Below are positions 10,020-19,132 of a stretch of 28,368 bases of DNA, one piece after another (within the stretch, counting starts at the first letter, position 1; each line of letters starts with the position of its first letter). The position numbers and the translations under genes were made by a program. The stretch is from the IMG/VR virus record IMGVR_UViG_3300031645_000009, positions 1 to 28,368 of that record. The stretch is one strand, 5' to 3'. Below the pieces are notes generated by a model, which had not been told where the DNA came from, made no database searches, and was given only the letters and a program-made list of their open reading frames with translations. The DNA is from a virus.

Positions 10020-10586
10020 TTATCGCCTACTGATTATTTTCTTTTCCAGTGGGCTTAATTCGTCTGTTTTAGTTGTGCTATTATACTGTTCTCTTGATCC
10101 TGAGAACTTAGTATCCCATTCTTTATCTCTCTGTTCGTTGTTTTCTTTTAAAGCATCGTCCATTACATTTCTATAATTTACTACTGCCTCAACACTTGGA
10201 AAGTTTAAAGCTTCTATTTGTTCTGTTGTAAAGTTTAATTCTCTGGCTTTTTCTTTTATCTCAAAAGTTCTTTCCCTTTGAATTGCCTTTGCTTCTCTTG
10301 TTGATATGTCGTCTTCTCTTGATTGGTATGCAATTTCTTTTTCTTCGGCTTCTCTTTTCTTTTTTTGGTCTGCCGTTTCGGTTGCTATCAATCTCTCTTT
10401 TTCTGCTTTGTCTTTTTCGCTTATCTTTCTATCCAGACCTGCATTATCTAATTTTAACTTTTCATATGCCTGCTCTTTGGCTTCCAGTTCCGCTTTGTAA
10501 TCCCTTGTGTCTTCTGTTATTATTGTTGTGTCTGTAGTTTCAGCTACTTCGCCTGACTCTATGTCCTGCTTTGTCTCTTCTGCCAT
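10020..10586 (-). CDS. Capsid scaffolding protein
   Basis: 188 aa, very charged and almost entirely helical: residues 28-120 form a coiled coil (YKAELEAKEQAYEKLKLDNA ... KDKAEKERL ... REAEEKEIAYQSRE). The short basic C-terminus (LSPLEKKIISRR) is typical of the capsid-binding end of scaffolds. It lies directly upstream of the major capsid gene. Expression starts from its own consensus promoter 26 bases upstream. AAGGGG serves as ribosome site. Confidence 0.85.
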   Translation of the reverse strand: MAEETKQDIESGEVAETTDTTIITEDTRDYKAELEAKEQAYEKLKLDNAGLDRKISEKDKAEKERLIATETADQKKKREAEEKEIAYQSREDDISTREAKAIQRERTFEIKEKARELNFTTEQIEALNFPSVEAVVNYRNVMDDALKENNEQRDKEWDTKFSGSREQYNSTTKTDELSPLEKKIISRR

Positions 10587-10618
10587 TATGACCCCTTCGC
10601 TTTTTTAATGTATGATTT

Positions 10619-10648
10619 ATTATACACTAACAGACGTTAAGTTGTCAA
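10619..10648 (-). promoter_or_regulatory. Consensus promoter of the scaffold-capsid-tail operon with operator-like palindrome
   Basis: TTGACA (10648-10643), an 18-bp spacer and TATAAT (10624-10619) read toward the scaffold gene. The spacer holds CTTAAC-GTCT-GTTAGT (10641-10626), an imperfect copy of the palindrome found in the portal promoter. Transcription should begin near 10612, leaving a 25-nt leader. Confidence 0.85.
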
Positions 10649-10674
10649 ATATGGTTTTAAATAGATTTTGGATA

Positions 10675-10765
10675 TAAAAATGCACCCCGTTAAGAGTGCA
10701 AGTAAGGAGATAGTATGCCAGATAACGATATACAATAAAATATCATAAAGGTTATCTGCGAAAGA
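10675..10765 (-). ncRNA. Putative ~90-nt small RNA with exposed anti-Shine-Dalgarno segment
   Basis: A minus-strand unit with its own promoter (10772-10800) and terminator (10681-10700) and no credible ORF. From the 5' end: an eight-pair stem CAGATAAC (10758-10751) with GTTATCTG (10726-10719), inside which GATAT/ATATC can add pairs; then the single-stranded segment CTATCTCCTTAC (about 10714-10703); then the terminator hairpin and U-run. The open segment is complementary to TAAGGAGATA-type ribosome sites, which several genes here carry, notably the methyltransferase (11726-11735) and the 71-aa gene beside the Rha-like gene. Transcription and function are inferred. Confidence 0.5.
10681..10700 (-). 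terminator. Rho-independent terminator of DUF2493 / small RNA
   Basis: On the minus strand TGCACTC and GGGTGCA pair (seven pairs, one T-G) around a six-base loop, followed directly by TTTTTA. It ends minus-strand transcription just before the scaffold promoter. Confidence 0.8.
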
Positions 10766-10771
10766 TAATTA

Positions 10772-10800
10772 AATATAGTCTATTTGTTTAATGCTGTCAA
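10772..10800 (-). promoter_or_regulatory. Promoter of the putative small RNA
   Basis: TTGACA (10800-10795), exactly 17 bp, then TATATT (10777-10772), reading minus. It lies downstream of the DUF2493 stop and upstream of a gene-free hairpin/terminator unit. A CTTAAC half-site, as in the late operator, lies two bases upstream of the -35. Confidence 0.7.
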
Positions 10801-10828
10801 ATGTTAAGATATAATTCTAACTACACCC

Positions 10829-11167
10829 TTAATTATCGTTATGCAATATTATTAACTTATATTTTAATCCATTCTCATACATGTTTTTAGATCCTTTCCC
10901 ACCTTCAAATAATATAAGAGCGTCTGCATATTTTGCCATTTGTTCGTTTCTTAGAATCCCCCCTATTTTACCAAGCGACCAATTAGGTTTAAAATCTTTT
11001 ATTGGTACGTCAATATATCTTGCAAATGATTCTCCAAACATATCAGCACCCTTACAAGTTCCCGACACTATTTCTGTAAAGTTATGCTTTTGATGTAATT
11101 CTAAAAGTAAGTCACAATCTTTATTAGTTTGCTTAAAGTTTCTTCCGCCTGCTATTATTACTTTCAT
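10829..11167 (-). CDS. SLOG-superfamily protein (DUF2493, YspA/CpYpsA-related)
   Basis: 112 aa. The signatures are MKVIIAGGRNF at the N-terminus, EIVSGTCKGADMFGESFARY in the middle and NWSLGKIGGILRNEQMAKYA near the C-terminus. They match the DUF2493 family of Rossmann-like SLOG domains, which bind nucleotide-derived ligands. The GGRNF, SGxCKGAD and GGxxRNxxM motifs are intact and the length is normal. Function in phages is unknown; SLOG domains are often tied to nucleotide signalling in conflict systems. It is the only protein gene between the methyltransferase island and the scaffold. AGGAGATAAT precedes the ATG, and the large structured RNA region lies directly upstream, so that region could be its leader. 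Confidence 0.85.
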   Translation of the reverse strand: MKVIIAGGRNFKQTNKDCDLLLELHQKHNFTEIVSGTCKGADMFGESFARYIDVPIKDFKPNWSLGKIGGILRNEQMAKYADALILFEGGKGSKNMYENGLKYKLIILHNDN

Positions 11168-11224
11168 ATTATCTCCTATATATACTTATCAACTACTAAA
11201 TACTATATTCTTGTTGGTGATTAG

Positions 11225-11591
11225 GGTGCACTCCTCCTAAGAACAGCACACCTTTAAATCTATATTCTCGCCAGAGCCTACAGGGTGAAATGTCTCATTT
11301 TCTATCAAGGAATCCCATATATCAACCTCTGCTTATAGATAGTCTCACAGTAGCAATAATTCTAATAGCCCTGCCAGTTACAGTTTTCCCCGACGACTAT
11401 TAAAATGTCATTGGGTAATGTCCTGTCTTATATACTACCCTGGCAGTCAAAGAGCATAAAAAAAGAGCTTTACTTGTACTCCTTCTTATGATACCACTCA
11501 TAAACACCAACAACCGCCACAGTATTAGTTAAGGAATACAAATAAAACTCTTTGTATTATGTGGCAGTATTGTGTCATTTACAAGGTTGGT
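11225..11591 (-). ncRNA. Large structured RNA candidate (about 370 nt)
   Basis: No ORF with start and ribosome site covers 11168-11737 on either strand, yet inverted repeats are dense. Minus-strand helices (plus coordinates): 11586-11591 with 11506-11511 enclosing 11560-11565/11516-11521 and an 8-bp 11551-11558/11535-11542; TTATGA/TCATAA at 11498-11503/11486-11491; CTGCCAG/CTGGCAG at 11440-11446/11371-11377 crossed by TAATAG/CTATTA at 11397-11402/11363-11368, forming a pseudoknot; and 11246-11252/11225-11231. The last helix pairs fully only on the minus strand (two G-U pairs become A-C mismatches on plus), which supports this strand. It may be a free ncRNA of the ornate phage-RNA kind (ROOL, GOLLD) or a long leader of the DUF2493 gene. 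Confidence 0.5.
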
Positions 11592-11640
11592 AGCCTCTGA
11601 CTTCTATATAATAACACATTTATTAAATTAGTACTATACA
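11592..11640 (-). promoter_or_regulatory. Possible extended -10 promoter for the structured RNA
   Basis: Reading minus, TG-T-TATTAT lies near 11612-11604 with no good -35. It would start RNA at about 11595, just before the outermost helix. This is weak evidence; read-through from the portal operon is an alternative source. Confidence 0.3.
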
Positions 11641-11682
11641 AAGATTAAGCAGTAATGTATTTTAGTGTAATTTAATTTAAAG

Positions 11683-11715
11683 TAGTTGACTAAGTAAACT
11701 AAAGTGATGTAAAAT
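11683..11715 (+). promoter_or_regulatory. Methyltransferase promoter with overlapping palindrome
   Basis: TTGACT (11686-11691), 18 bp, TAAAAT (11710-11715). The -35 is covered by the near-perfect palindrome TAGTTGAC-TAA-GTAAACTA (11683-11701, seven of eight arm bases matching), which looks like a repressor operator. TAAGGAGATA follows at 11726-11735. Confidence 0.65.
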
Positions 11716-11737
11716 ATATTAACAATAAGGAGATAAA

Positions 11738-12694
11738 ATGAATGTAGTTAGTTTGTTTGATGGCATGAGATGTGGAAGACCTGCTTTAAAACGTGCAGGG
11801 GTAGTAGTTAATAATTATCATAGTTCTGAAATAGATCCTTATGCAATTAAAATAGGAGATAAGAATTACCCTCAAGACATAAAAAATAAATTGGGTGACG
11901 TTACAAAATGGCGAGAATGGAATCTATCAGATATTGGCTTAATTATTGGTGGTAGTCCTTGTCAGGGGTTTAGTGTTGCTGGAAAACAATTAAATTTCGA
12001 TGATCCTAGAAGCGCCTTGTTTTTTGAGTTTTTAAGTGTGTTAAAACACTACAAGCCGAAATATTTCCTATTAGAAAATGTAGCACGTATGGATGATAAT
12101 GTTAAAAATATAATTTCTGAATTAATAGGCTGGCAACCTATTAAAATAAACAGCAACTTAGTTTCAGCTCAAAATAGAGATAGATTATATTGGACAAATA
12201 TCCCAAATGTTCAACAGCCAGAAGATAAGGGTATTTTCTTGAAAGATATTATGCTTGAAAAAACTAGTGAATATGTAAAAGCTAGTAAAAAGGGAATATA
12301 TAAAAAGTTTCAAAATAAAGCTAGTTGTTTAACTGGAGGCGCTCATAGTGGAGGTAATTATTCCGATATGGATTTATTTGGAATATTAAAAAACAGGTGT
12401 TACCATATTGGGGAGGCTATAGGAATAAATGGACACGAACTATTAACAAGGGTTTATGCTGATTATGGAAAATCACCAACATTAACAACTATTACGGGTG
12501 GTAACCAATATTCTAAAATTGCTATTGATGATTATATTTGGAGAAGATTAACCCCTGTTGAATGCGAAAGGCTTCAAACTATTCCAGATAATTATACCGA
12601 AGGTGTTAGTAATTCACAAAGATATAAGATGTTAGGCAATGGTTGGACTGTTGATGTAATAGCTCACATATTAAGGGGAATAGAATGTATCTAA
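11738..12694 (+). CDS. Orphan C5-cytosine DNA methyltransferase
   Basis: 318 aa, full length. SAM-binding motif I is VVSLFDGMRCGRPALKRAG, the phage-type variant in which FxGxGG is replaced by FDGMxCG. Motif IV is IIGGSPCQGFSVAGK with the catalytic cysteine, motif VI is LLENVARM, motif VIII is QNRDRLYWTN, and motif X is MLGNGWTVDVIAHIL. The target-recognition region is short (about 195-255, containing LTGGAHSGGNYSD). No restriction enzyme gene is adjacent, so protection of phage DNA from host restriction, or epigenetic control, is likely. It is first in a plus-strand operon and overlaps the next gene by ten bases. Its ribosome site TAAGGAGATA is complementary to the putative small RNA at 10675-10765. 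Confidence 0.95.
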   Translation: MNVVSLFDGMRCGRPALKRAGVVVNNYHSSEIDPYAIKIGDKNYPQDIKNKLGDVTKWREWNLSDIGLIIGGSPCQGFSVAGKQLNFDDPRSALFFEFLSVLKHYKPKYFLLENVARMDDNVKNIISELIGWQPIKINSNLVSAQNRDRLYWTNIPNVQQPEDKGIFLKDIMLEKTSEYVKASKKGIYKKFQNKASCLTGGAHSGGNYSDMDLFGILKNRCYHIGEAIGINGHELLTRVYADYGKSPTLTTITGGNQYSKIAIDDYIWRRLTPVECERLQTIPDNYTEGVSNSQRYKMLGNGWTVDVIAHILRGIECI

Positions 12695-12837
12695 CAATAC
12701 AAGAGTATGCAGACCAACAAAGACCGCCAGTACACCGTACAACGGTCGAGAGATGGATAAGAGAGGGGAAGCTAACATATGAGCTAACTATCAGTAATAG
12801 AAAGCGTATAACAGGGATAAGGAGAGAGTATGACTAA
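12685..12837 (+). CDS. Excisionase/MerR-like micro helix-turn-helix protein, 50 aa
   Basis: Translation MYLTIQEYADQQRPPVHRTT then VERWIREGKLTYELTISNRK. The 'LTIQEYA ... vHRTTVERWIREGKL' pattern is the winged-helix DNA-binding fold of excisionases and MerR-type small regulators. It starts inside the methyltransferase gene with AAGGGG upstream, so the two are coupled. It may regulate this operon through the palindrome at 11683-11701. Integration or excision cannot be judged, because no integrase is seen. Confidence 0.75.
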   Translation: MYLTIQEYADQQRPPVHRTTVERWIREGKLTYELTISNRKRITGIRREYD

Positions 12838-13000
12838 CAGACGATCTTTTAGGTTTACTATGACACAAGAAGAAAAGTTAAAGAGACAACGTAATGAACA
12901 GGAATGTATTGTATTTATCCCTAAATACAAATCTATATATAATCTTTTATTACCATCAGTGGACCATGAAAATAGAGGTACAGAAGGGATTAAGGAGTAG
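12830..13000 (+). CDS. Small charged protein, 56 aa
   Basis: MTNRRSFRFTMTQEEKLKRQ, then RNEQECIVFIPKYKSIYNLL and an acidic tail. ATAAGGAGAGAG precedes the ATG, which overlaps the end of the HTH gene by eight bases. The basic N-terminus could bind nucleic acid. No family is recognised. Confidence 0.6.
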   Translation: MTNRRSFRFTMTQEEKLKRQRNEQECIVFIPKYKSIYNLLLPSVDHENRGTEGIKE

Positions 13001-13003
13001 AGT

Positions 13004-13186
13004 ATGAATATTAAAGATTTATATATAGATGTTTTAAATAGCGCTATTAAATGCAATATGGATCAAAAGACTATTATTAATCTTAAAGAATGGCACGCTC
13101 AACAAGTAAAAAACAATTTCAGCTGGTTGGGTTATGAGCATCAATTAAAAACATTAAATAAGATTTATATAAGTACTATTTCTTAG
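13004..13186 (+). CDS. Small protein, 60 aa, last gene of methyltransferase operon
   Basis: MNIKDLYIDVLNSAIKCNMD then QKTIINLKEWHAQQVKNNFS. AAGGAGTAGAGT directly precedes the ATG, three bases after the previous stop. It is mostly helical with two cysteine/histidine residues too few for a zinc site. It ends convergently inside the 3' end of the head-morphogenesis gene (11-bp overlap), with no terminator between. The function is unknown. Confidence 0.6.
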   Translation: MNIKDLYIDVLNSAIKCNMDQKTIINLKEWHAQQVKNNFSWLGYEHQLKTLNKIYISTIS

Positions 13187-14177
13187 GGAATAAAACTTCA
13201 CCATAACGGTTAGTAATCAAACCCTGCTTCTCGCTATAGGTTTTGAAATCTTCGTATGGCACTACTTTATTATTGCCGTCTTTGTCTCGTTGGATTCTGG
13301 ATTCAGGAGGGAACTCTTCATCTAGTGTTATGGTTGTAGATCTATCGTTTATATCAAATTTAGCCACTCCGCTATTATGTGCAAACTTATATCCTACTTC
13401 TGGAAACTTAAACTTACCCTCTTTGTTAGCTATTTGACCATCCATTTGAGCAGACTGTGCCCTGGTCCTATCGTCTAAAGTTTCGACTAATTGCAATTTA
13501 CTAGGTACTATTTCCTGTTGGTTAATCCATTGATCTGTGTCTGCCGTTGCTCTCATTCTAAGTGTTTCTGTCCTTAAAGTCCTAGTCGTTTTATATGTCT
13601 GACCTTTTCTTAAACTAGGATCTGCAATCCATTTACCTGCTGAGTCTCGATAACCTAACACCTGGTCAAGTTGCCTGTTGATCTTAGGTAAACTTAACCC
13701 TTGTTCTACACCCGATACAATATTAGTATAGATCTGCTCTAAGTCTATTGATCGACCGGTCTGCATCTTTGCACGGTTCATCAATTTACTTAATGGTGCG
13801 TTACTAGCCTTTTTAAATTGCTTTTCTGTATACTTGGGTAACTTTACTAGATAGCCCTCTGATATACCCGTGTTGACGATAGTATAAAGGCTTTCATAGT
13901 ATGCGGTGTTATATTCTTTCAAATAGGCTGCCTGACTAAATGAGTCTTTCTTGATATAGCTCGGTCGGAGTGTCTCATTAGTTTCTTTTGCGAACTTCTC
14001 AGCTCTGTTATATTCACTAAAATATTGTTGATTATCGACTGCCTTTTCTGTTACATCCATTGCTAATTTACGAGACTTGTCACGGATTACATCAAAGATA
14101 AGACCTATCTCGTTAATAATAGATTTATCTCTTTGGGATCTCAGTTTAATAACTTGCTTCTGATATTTAGATGTCAT
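13176..14177 (-). CDS. Head morphogenesis / minor capsid protein (SPP1 gp7, Mu gpF-like)
   Basis: 333 aa, directly after the portal gene. The C-terminal half contains YKTTRTLRTETLRMRATADT then LQLVETLDDRTRAQSAQMDG, the conserved 'R.iaRTE..r...a......w.......k.W.t..D.rTR..H..mdG' block of phage head morphogenesis proteins, with the usual histidine replaced (AQSAQMDGQ). The N-terminal half is helical and likely binds portal or DNA. In SPP1 the homologue enters procapsids with the portal and affects DNA ejection. The start overlaps the portal end (ATG within GAAGATGAC), with a weak GGTAGAAG site. Confidence 0.85.
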   Translation of the reverse strand: MTSKYQKQVIKLRSQRDKSIINEIGLIFDVIRDKSRKLAMDVTEKAVDNQQYFSEYNRAEKFAKETNETLRPSYIKKDSFSQAAYLKEYNTAYYESLYTIVNTGISEGYLVKLPKYTEKQFKKASNAPLSKLMNRAKMQTGRSIDLEQIYTNIVSGVEQGLSLPKINRQLDQVLGYRDSAGKWIADPSLRKGQTYKTTRTLRTETLRMRATADTDQWINQQEIVPSKLQLVETLDDRTRAQSAQMDGQIANKEGKFKFPEVGYKFAHNSGVAKFDINDRSTTITLDEEFPPESRIQRDKDGNNKVVPYEDFKTYSEKQGLITNRYGEVLFPKK

Positions 14178-16150: not shown

Positions 16151-16615
16151 ATGAATACAGTTTACCATACAAGCCCAGAAGCAATAACAGAAATTACAAT
16201 GAATGGCTTATTCGACGATTGTTTATTTTTCTCCACTGACATTTATTCCATGGGTGATATTGTTGCAACATATGAAATGGAAGTTGAATGTCTTGAAACT
16301 TCATCTTTCTTTTATCAGGATAATTGTGATGAAATATTAAAAGATGTTGTATCTACAGTAGCAATGTACTTTGATTGTGATAATGATACAGCGATAGACT
16401 TACTTGATGATACTAAAAGAGCATTTTTTTATATGTGTGAAAACGGAAATAATGAAAACGGTGAAGCTGGTGAAGCTGCTTGGTATATCCAAAAAAAACA
16501 AGGTGAAGCTGGGAAATTATTGGGTTATGACGGTGCAATATCGGATGACGAACAAGGAACAGTATATATTATTCCTATGATGGGAAGAGAAAACGATCTA
16601 AAGGAAGTAAAATAA
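16151..16615 (+). CDS. AcrIF11-like ADP-ribosyltransferase (putative anti-CRISPR)
   Basis: 154 aa; the ATG at 16151 is chosen because TTAAGGAG lies ten bases upstream. The N-terminus VYHTSPEAITEITMNGLFDD then CLFFSTDIYSMG, a middle helical part (ILKDVVSTVAMYFDCDNDTA), and the C-terminus EAAWYIQKKQGEAGKLLGYD then GAISDDEQGTVYIIPM correspond block by block to what I remember of AcrIF11-type anti-CRISPRs: 'FHTSP.EIT.I', 'G.F...L.F..D.Y.M', 'W.IQ......A..LG..G....DEQGT.Y.I.M.G'. AcrIF11 is an ART that modifies the type I-F Cascade. The DDEQGT motif (132-137) and the HTS (6-8) are kept. In this host background the target may be another Cascade or unrelated. It is coupled to the PLD-like gene by TAATG. 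Confidence 0.75.
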   Translation: MNTVYHTSPEAITEITMNGLFDDCLFFSTDIYSMGDIVATYEMEVECLETSSFFYQDNCDEILKDVVSTVAMYFDCDNDTAIDLLDDTKRAFFYMCENGNNENGEAGEAAWYIQKKQGEAGKLLGYDGAISDDEQGTVYIIPMMGRENDLKEVK

Positions 16616-17205
16616 TGACAGGAAGTTTATTCAGTTCAGAGGATATAAAAGAAGAAAAGAAAGAGGTTAAATCAAAAGCTCATTCTTTAAAGTCTAAAAA
16701 AAAGAGAGTTGTAGGAAAAGAGAATTCTATTTGTAAAGATGTTATTGGACAACTAGAACAAGATACGGTTTTACAGTTTGTAACAAAAGGCGAATGGTCA
16801 ACACATGATTTATTATTTCATATTTTAAATCAGGTGGGAGCTAGTGAGGTCACTATTGCGACATGGAGTGTATCAAGTCCAGTAGTCGCTCAAATTGCTA
16901 ATTTATTAGAATCTGGAATGATAACAAAGCTTGATGGGCTATTTGATTGGCGCATGAAAGTTAGATGTCCAGAAGCAGAACAGTTTTTAAAGTTTAATTG
17001 CGCAAACATTAGACTTATTAATTGTCATGCTAAAGTTACAGTTATTAAAAATGATAATTGGAATATAACGATAGTTGGAAGTGCAAATCTAACAAATAAC
17101 CCACGTATAGAATCAGGTGTAATTTTTACAGATAAAGAAACAGCTGATTTTAATTTAGAATGGATGAAAGGAGAGTTAAAAAATGGTAAATACTTTACAG
17201 ACTGA
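16615..17205 (+). CDS. PLD-like (HKD) domain protein
   Basis: 196 aa. After a lysine-rich N-terminal tail (about 1-35), residues 60-170 follow the phospholipase D-like fold: ATWSVSSPVVAQIANLLESG, then a single HxK site at H138/K140 (NCHAKVTVIKNDNWNITIVG) and SANLTNNPRIESGVI. The classic HxKxxxxD aspartate is displaced by two residues, and only one half-site is present, so a homodimer would be needed for catalysis. Such phage proteins are usually called PLD-like nucleases. Lipid activity is unlikely. It is translated from an ATG overlapping the upstream stop. Its role in the island, whether DNA processing, counter-defence or otherwise, is unknown. Confidence 0.75.
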   Translation: MTGSLFSSEDIKEEKKEVKSKAHSLKSKKKRVVGKENSICKDVIGQLEQDTVLQFVTKGEWSTHDLLFHILNQVGASEVTIATWSVSSPVVAQIANLLESGMITKLDGLFDWRMKVRCPEAEQFLKFNCANIRLINCHAKVTVIKNDNWNITIVGSANLTNNPRIESGVIFTDKETADFNLEWMKGELKNGKYFTD

Positions 17206-17449: not shown

Positions 17450-17594
17450 ATATTGTAAATTACATGGATTAAAGGGCGTGGAAGAGTTAGCAACATACTG
17501 CGAACTTAAACCAAGACGTTTATTTGATTGGTGGAATACTAACAATAAAGCTTTTAAAGTTTTAGTTGATGGGTGGTCGTTGTTAAATAAGTAA
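17436..17594 (+). CDS. Micro-HTH protein, 52 aa, last gene of ART operon
   Basis: MTASKYCKLHGLKGVEELAT then YCELKPRRLFDWWNTNNKAF. The pattern 'Y-C-K-x-x-G ... E-x-A-x-Y ... F-x-x-W ... F-x-x-L-V' is shared with the 55-aa protein at 21914-22081, so two copies of this small helix-turn-helix family exist here. It overlaps the previous gene by 14 bases. Six bases after its stop a strong terminator begins. A last-gene HTH beside an anti-CRISPR-like gene is reminiscent of Aca regulators, and the paired operators at 15723-15765 would be candidate sites; this link is speculation. Confidence 0.6.
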   Translation: MTASKYCKLHGLKGVEELATYCELKPRRLFDWWNTNNKAFKVLVDGWSLLNK

Positions 17595-17599
17595 TCAAC

Positions 17600-17637
17600 A
17601 CCCTCTTTTTATGTAGTATAATACATAAAAAGAGGGT
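17600..17637. terminator. Bidirectional terminator, 16-bp perfect stem
   Basis: ACCCTCTTTTTATGTA (17600-17615) pairs perfectly with 17622-17637 around GTATAA. A-rich and T-rich flanks within the stem give U-runs in both directions. It separates the plus-strand ART operon from the minus-strand Rha operon. Confidence 0.9.
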
Positions 17638-17649
17638 AGTCAAAAGGTG

Positions 17650-17742
17650 TTACTTTATCTCCTTAGTTTTAAAAAGAGGTTCAAGAGTCTCTTTTATATC
17701 TCCGTATTCCTTCTTTAGTTCTAGCATTGGTTTAATTATCAC
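17650..17742 (-). CDS. Possible 25-30-aa peptide downstream of the 71-aa gene
   Basis: GTG start at 17742 (or ATG at 17727) gives MIIKPMLELKKEYGDIKETL followed by EPLFKTKEIK, a charged amphipathic helix. It overlaps the end of the 71-aa gene. No good ribosome site is visible, so this rests only on the open frame and position before the terminator. Confidence 0.25.
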   Translation of the reverse strand: MIIKPMLELKKEYGDIKETLEPLFKTKEIK

Positions 17743-19093: not shown

Positions 19094-19132
19094 CCCCTAT
19101 TGGTGTAATATTAGCCCCTTAATCGGGGTTAA
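19090..19132. terminator. Bidirectional terminator between the 88-aa gene and terL
   Basis: TTAACCCC (19090-19097) can pair with GGGGTTAA (19125-19132), or the nearer GCCCC (19114-19118) can pair with the same CGGGG block. Both convergent genes end here and their stop codons lie within the arms. The U-runs are poor. Confidence 0.6.

Follow-up and report, generated by a model that had tools for sequence, protein, structure and literature searches.

The DNA analyzed here, referred to as the window, is a 28,368-base IMG/VR virus record whose genes lie mostly on the minus strand and include those for a terminase, an SPP1-type portal, a Mu-F-like head protein, and an SU10-type capsid. The portal and capsid matches were largely to phages of Bacillota, and the terminase and Rha matches were mostly to phages of Gammaproteobacteria. 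The best capsid match in the phage collection had approximately 28% identity, and the Mu-F-like protein had no match in that collection. By sequence comparison, this is a phage with few relatives in the collections searched.

Between the Mu-F-like and scaffold genes lies a 2.6-kb cassette (10587-13175) made up of a C5-cytosine DNA methylase gene, a spacer, and a YspA-type SLOG gene (Table 1). Sporosarcina phage Lietuvens, which has a similar gene order with short gaps (portal, minor capsid, scaffold, and capsid), is without the cassette. The SLOG gene has the Shine-Dalgarno (SD) sequence AGGAG before its ATG. The methylase and SLOG genes diverge, and the gene-free stretch 11168-11737 is the upstream spacer common to both. 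The initial annotation had described 570 nt without a gene, and this was borne out, as the stretch contains no open reading frame (ORF) of at least 60 aa and its longest open frames span 28 to 60 codons. A spliced or frameshifted protein gene, named in that annotation as evidence that would speak against an RNA, was not found in the stretch.

Table 1. Positions of genes and predicted elements in the window
Feature	Position	Strand	Detail or basis
Mu-F-like gene	13176-14177		
C5-cytosine DNA methylase gene	11738-12694	+	318 aa; PF00145, E 2.8e-47
Candidate extended -10 element, TGTTATTAT	11608-11616	-	Start would be at about 11601-11603
Bistable RNA element, core of the finding	11445-11602	-	Three-way junction (fold A) or 23-bp hairpin (fold B)
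P1 of fold A, AGUCAGAG/CUUUGACU	11602-11595/11452-11445	-	
Fold A rod	11492-11592	-	Takes up 5' strand of 23-bp helix
Rod helix UACCA/UGGUA	11592-11588/11496-11492	-	
Rod helix CUUGUAAAU/GUUUAUGAG	11585-11577/11505-11497	-	
Rod helix CUGCCACA/UGUGGCGG	11567-11560/11521-11514	-	
Rod helix AAUACAAA/UUUGUAUU	11558-11551/11542-11535	-	
Fold A arm, AAGAAGGAGU/GCUCUUUUUU	11487-11478/11468-11459	-	
Fold B hairpin, 23 bp	11462-11553	-	Strands 11553-11531 and 11484-11462
U7 tract	11458-11464	-	Sequence; directly 3' of GCUC of the stem
H-type pseudoknot	11359-11446	-	S1, 11446-11440/11377-11371 (7 pairs)
Hairpin with SD-like AGGAGGAG (11238-11231) in loop and 3' side	11225-11252	-	z -3.2
YspA-type SLOG gene	10829-11167	-	112 aa; PF10686, E 1.3e-11
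Second strong promoter-like site, SLOG-scaffold spacer (10587-10828)	10800-10772	-	11/12 matches
Terminator-like hairpin with T5, 3' of SLOG gene	10700-10681	-	Terminator scan
Promoter-like TTGACA-18-TATAAT before scaffold and capsid genes	10648-10619	-	12/12 matches
Scaffold gene	10020-10586		

The terminator-like hairpin downstream of the SLOG gene is flanked by the two strong promoter-like sites, all three on the minus strand. The head genes thus seem to be left with a promoter of their own despite the cassette, and the more upstream of the two sites could give rise to a short RNA of about 70 nt. Two terminase relatives (63 to 64% identity) carry a methylase gene, 41% identical to the one here, directly before the terminase gene, and the sequences suggest that the methylase is mobile within the terminase-related group. 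Elsewhere in the window, a weak PLD/NgoFVII-like nuclease match (PF13091, E 4e-4, under the curated cutoff) falls in the plus-strand frame 16615-17205. This frame is among the plus-strand genes between portal and terminase, which may form a second foreign cassette. The regions 17500-17731 and 19094-19128, in or near convergent-gene spacers, have hairpins that are strong on either strand and are likely ordinary two-way terminators.

Two exclusive folds of the minus strand

We examined the folding of the spacer on both strands. The minus-strand segment 11610-11200 folded at -119.4 kcal/mol (z -4.22; none of 100 shuffles was as good), compared to a z of -0.53 for the same segment on the plus strand, so that the structured RNA candidate is specific to the minus strand, as first proposed. 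The signal is distributed unevenly on this strand. The 5' part (11602-11456) gave a z of -4.4, the hairpin piece within it (11555-11455) a z of -6.5, and the last hairpin piece (11256-11220) a z of -3.2 (0/200 shuffles). The 3' half (11455-11225) folded no better than its shuffles (z -0.74), and 11350-11253 had a z of +1.0. A long-range closing helix near 11600/11275 was not above chance (P values of 0.31 and 0.39).

A helix said to pair fully only on the minus strand is indeed present: it is the 23-bp helix of Table 1, with all 23 pairs formed, including 3 G-U pairs. On the plus strand no run exceeds 12 pairs, and 200 shuffles of the spacer reached at most 19. A count of at least seven helices above chance was not borne out: without the 23-bp helix the contiguous helices have at most 13 pairs, and the longest in shuffled sequences averages 12 to 13. 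The natural start of the structure is at about 11602 rather than at 11591, the 5' end given originally. The picture of a large RNA whose helices nest and cross holds in that the stretch is structured, but it was overstated, as the signal resides in 158 nt (11602-11445). This signal appears to consist of a choice between two folds, not of one ornate fold.

When the transcript was grown in silico from 11603, its minimum-energy fold switched completely and repeatedly. For the RNA 11603-11444, fold A had an energy of -50.4 kcal/mol and fold B, obtained as the best fold when every fold A pair was penalized, had an energy of -45.8 kcal/mol, with zero pairs in common. Forcing the 23-bp helix while allowing P1 gave -49.1 kcal/mol. 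The order of A over B for this RNA held at 20 to 42°C and with three dangle settings. Fold A is a three-way junction whose arm sequesters the U tract together with the 3' strand of the terminator-like stem. Fold B is terminator-like, with a 46-nt loop that contains two small hairpins; the foot of its stem is A+U rich, and three U's of the U7 tract can pair with AAA at the stem foot. In the full-length fold, AGUCAGAG, the 5' strand of P1, has an alternative partner, CUCUGGC, near 11277-11271.

Shuffled sequences had best folds of -32.2 ± 3.6 kcal/mol and disjoint alternatives of -27.0 ± 2.7 kcal/mol. The alternative fold of 11603-11444 thus has a z of -6.9, and none of 1,000 shuffles reached -45.8. 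These ends were picked after the folds had been seen; the unbiased grid window 11441-11600 (minus strand) gave -44.0 and ranked first among 1,412 windows of 160 nt on both strands, with the next unrelated window at -37.3. Among GC-matched windows at other loci, of which 12,481 of 14,440 were scored, none reached -45.8 and one reached -44.0. That single window consists of tandem repeats spaced 22 nt apart, and in the bistable element no direct repeat of at least 8 nt was found. A two-fold value this high is rare. The plus strand showed weaker bistability (alternative z -3.0), and two other hairpin regions of the record gave z values of -2.2 to +0.2 on both strands.

By the same measure, the Escherichia coli thr leader, a known attenuator, had a z of -3.9 (0/300), and the trp leader, a classic attenuator, had a z of +1.4 (276/300). 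As the thr leader scores and the trp leader does not, the measure detects some attenuators, not attenuators as such. Scoring for a second fold disjoint from the first may also be useful in the discovery of bistable RNAs lacking homologues. What the computation provides is the sequence, the two exclusive folds, the closeness of their stabilities, and the strand preference. The energy models indicate that the minus-strand stretch probably gives an RNA with two almost equally good, incompatible folds.

The pseudoknot reported earlier exists, and only 3 of 1,000 shuffles were as good, but it is not exceptional within the record: in a scan of 4,712 windows of 96 nt, several other sites, coding sequence included, scored at least as high. 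Its second stem, S2, has 12 pairs (11406-11395/11370-11359), and its two 3' strands directly abut. The full-length fold contains a pairing between CUGCCA (near 11567) and UGGCAG (near 11376). Because this pairing would break S1, the pseudoknot would suit fold A better than fold B, as far as can be reasoned with a folding program that cannot score pseudoknots.

Known families and homologue searches

The initial annotation had named the ROOL and GOLLD RNAs as possible relatives; kinship with these or with HEARO was not supported. An Rfam search gave no match at the gathering threshold over the window, which places the RNA candidate outside any Rfam (15) family. At E values of up to 10 over 10600-13200, there was no credible hit, with the best hits far under threshold. 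The ROOL model (RF03087) searched alone had no match at an E value of ≤10, as was also the case for 14 control genomes. Phage-encoded ROOL and GOLLD RNAs resemble the candidate in being structured and in containing a pseudoknot (PMC12286853, in part). In contrast, the ROOL model searched here has 574 positions and, according to the same source, many GOLLD members exceed 800 nt, whereas here one element of 158 nt carries the signal. ROOL and GOLLD are often near tRNA islands, and the window has no tRNA. A known large phage RNA class of this kind, or a self-splicing intron, was favored only by the analogy drawn at the outset; given no Rfam match, no tRNA, and no surrounding exons, there is next to no chance that it applies. 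Group I and group II introns (no Rfam match and no exons) and tmRNA or tRNA (no tRNA in the window) were rejected as well. Overall, the computed folds describe a strand-specific, strongly bistable RNA candidate that does not appear, by the tests made, to be an ornate RNA like ROOL or GOLLD.

No homologue of the region was found by blastn against phages and plasmids or against 198 of 200 collected loci, the other two (L001 and L002) being stretches of the window itself. Relatives were collected by the SLOG protein (14 loci), by the terminase (80 loci, plus 7 viral and 12 genome loci), and by the methylase (at least 80 loci); the Mu-F-like and capsid proteins gave none. In the stretches compared, the portal, capsid, and SLOG proteins of this phage matched nothing in the terminase relatives (62 to 74% identity). 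Two 15-base patterns from the RNA each occurred at 32 loci in viral_contigs, with flanks at most 40% identical over 25 bases per side, which corresponds to chance. Covariance models built from a single sequence, one for the 5' element (R2) and one for the pseudoknot segment (R3), were searched against the window and 152 of 266 loci. Only the window gave meaningful matches, among them a plus-strand echo of its hairpin (E 0.007). In 296 genomes of one phylum, there was one 35-nt match (E 3.9e-4 per genome, approximately 0.1 overall), with no model match there.

A possible leader of the SLOG gene and other readings

The element precedes the SLOG gene on the same strand, an order and orientation that fit a leader. 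The divergent spacer is a place where a convergent-gene terminator is not expected, and such a terminator was rejected because the flanking genes diverge. We consider it possible, with a probability of roughly 0.4, that minus-strand 11603-11168 is a leader RNA of the SLOG gene and that its first 158 nt act as a bistable transcription attenuator. From the fold models we infer that the RNA would be made from a start near 11602, that termination would occur at the U7 tract, and that SLOG would be regulated in this way.

Such a leader would span about 435 nt, and the fold A rod would be the first part to form during transcription. With the polymerase at the U7 tract (nt 140 to 146), the 23-bp hairpin of fold B would become competitive, and if it formed, transcription would stop after about 147 nt. 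If fold A were kept, its second arm would sequester the U tract and the 3' strand of the terminator, P1 would then close the junction, and the polymerase would continue through the pseudoknot and the last hairpin into the SLOG gene. As an antiterminator, fold A would thus engage the U tract and the two strands of the terminator. The balance might be tipped by, for example, a metabolite, a protein, the speed of transcription, or an antisense RNA.

The energies of the growing transcript were compared with the 23-bp helix excluded or favored. Fold A was ahead until nt 134 (-32.3 versus -30.3), fold B was ahead at nt 138 to 154, and fold A was ahead again from nt 158, when P1 closes. The crossover coincides with synthesis of the U tract, indicating that the folds are balanced at the point where the polymerase would either stop or read on. 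Between the two folds, a path search found a high barrier (saddle at -11.4), and the choice would therefore be made during transcription, insofar as equilibrium nearest-neighbor energies, which ignore kinetics, pseudoknots, and proteins, allow such a statement.

The likeness to attenuators such as the thr leader of E. coli and the ABC-leaders lies in the presumed leader position, the hairpin with a U tract, and a competing, mutually exclusive fold built in part from the strands of the terminator (PMC2965389, in part). However, the candidate here is a computed one, has no conservation, has a branched terminator loop of 46 nt, and has an unusually extensive alternative fold. The 23-bp hairpin was not listed in the terminator scan, in which the loop limit was 3 to 8. 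The extended -10 element would fit the proposed start, but such matches are not overrepresented in the record (15 found and 10.9 expected); the sigma-70 scan listed no promoter at this site, and there was no good -35 for the start. The SLOG message could originate within the element or 3' of it, at promoter-like sites with 9/12 matches (11584-11556 and 11325-11297). None of 14 related viral SLOG genes has a comparable leader (the gap to the preceding gene is at most about 206 nt). This weakens the link to SLOG but not the mechanism, for which conservation is not strictly required. On the strength of its folds, the element is probably an orphan of the terminator/antiterminator kind.

The absence of such a leader from related SLOG genes also argues against a job tied to SLOG, and the folding evidence is equally compatible with a free-standing, trans-acting phage RNA of about 147 nt ending at the U7 tract, or a longer one reaching to about 11225, whose two folds would be working states or bound and unbound forms. 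The 147-nt form resembles a promoter followed by a structured RNA and a U-run end, and SLOG alone could be transcribed from the weak promoter-like site at 11325-11297. Conservation in kin is frequent among trans-acting phage RNAs, whereas no homologue was found in the searches made here; the element is moreover directly upstream of SLOG in the same direction, with no promoter listed in 11296-11167. We regard this reading as less likely than the attenuator but as a serious rival to it. Somewhat more doubtful is a decayed or neutral spacer whose inverted repeats fold well by accident or whose structure matters only as DNA. No relative was found in any collection searched, and once the 23-bp helix and the two-fold property are set aside, most elements lie close to chance. 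The two-fold property, however, is what accident explains poorly, as such a second fold occurred in none of 1,000 shuffles and in at most 1 of 12,481 windows. The strand bias is likewise strong, with all non-Watson-Crick pairs of the 23-bp helix being G-U on the minus strand, and the GC content is 0.39 in 11225-11602, compared to 0.19 in 11603-11737 and 0.31 in the SLOG gene.

Two readings as toxin-antitoxin-like modules were also considered. The order of parts (an RNA, a Rho-independent terminator, and a protein gene) matches the description of type III systems, and type III antitoxin RNAs and RCd22 of AbiF share with the candidate a structured RNA and a terminator-like element upstream of a protein gene (PMC12373285, in part). 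In this reading, the element would be the RNA antitoxin of such a module, followed by a leaky terminator and the protein gene. Unlike those systems, the RNA here has no tandem repeats, the only repeat being a 10-nt AT repeat outside the RNA. The downstream protein is a SLOG protein of the YspA type (PF10686) rather than an endoRNase toxin or a ToxN- or AbiF-like protein, and there is no Rfam match, making this assignment improbable. A type I-like pair, in which the minus-strand RNA would be the antisense of a 37-aa hydrophobic peptide encoded on the plus strand (11290-11403), draws on an open frame whose translation has a membrane-like core. U-rich antisense frames often look hydrophobic, however, and no ORF of at least 12 aa with an SD was listed on either strand. 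There is no plus-strand promoter-like site just before the frame, and the bistable part lies outside 11290-11403 and would go unexplained, so that we hold such a pair to be very improbable.

Returning to the attenuator reading, the downstream gene belongs to the superfamily of the viral YpsA-like SLOG proteins (PF10686), which in phages are proposed to act on or sense ADP-ribose derivatives from host immunity and to counter ADP-ribose-based immune signals of the host (PMC9503650, in part). Given this proposed role, inducible control by a leader would be plausible. A switch of this kind, if real, would represent RNA-level control ahead of a gene from a family for which dampening of host immune signaling has been proposed, and a read-through assay would be a direct handle on the timing of SLOG gene activation. 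That the element founds a new class of phage riboregulators, in which a bistable leader senses a host immune product and switches on SLOG counter-defense when needed, is a long shot. The signal sensed, for example, ADP-ribose, a cyclic nucleotide, or slowed transcription during attack, is pure conjecture.

Gene-free elements upstream of other methylase genes

Among the methylase loci listed, at least 4 of 80 have an upstream gap that is larger than 200 nt or undefined. Two of the collected loci, L135 (489-663, minus strand) and L134 (3209-3401, minus strand), share a gene-free element that is 78% identical over 211 nt, and a third copy is present in L265 (33-190, plus strand), the Manatee Spring phage MW202825.1. 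All three copies lie upstream of a DNA methylase gene, with two ORFs in between in L134. The element had no Rfam match, and its model matched none of 296 genomes of one phylum. This model (R1) also had no match in the window at an E value of ≤10, and the element is thus unrelated to the RNA of the window. Folded singly, its sequences show no unusual stability (z -1.5 and -1.1). Blocks invariant in the three copies are ACGGGGC.AT.ACCCAGCCCTCTGGAATGT, GCGACAGACCAGGATAAACG, and ACTAGATAAACGAGAG, and by sequence the element looks like an undescribed phage RNA family. Another gene-free stretch upstream of a phage methylase gene, L136 991-1391 (minus strand), has no similarity to the other methylase-upstream stretches and is unusually stable, with a z of -5.0.
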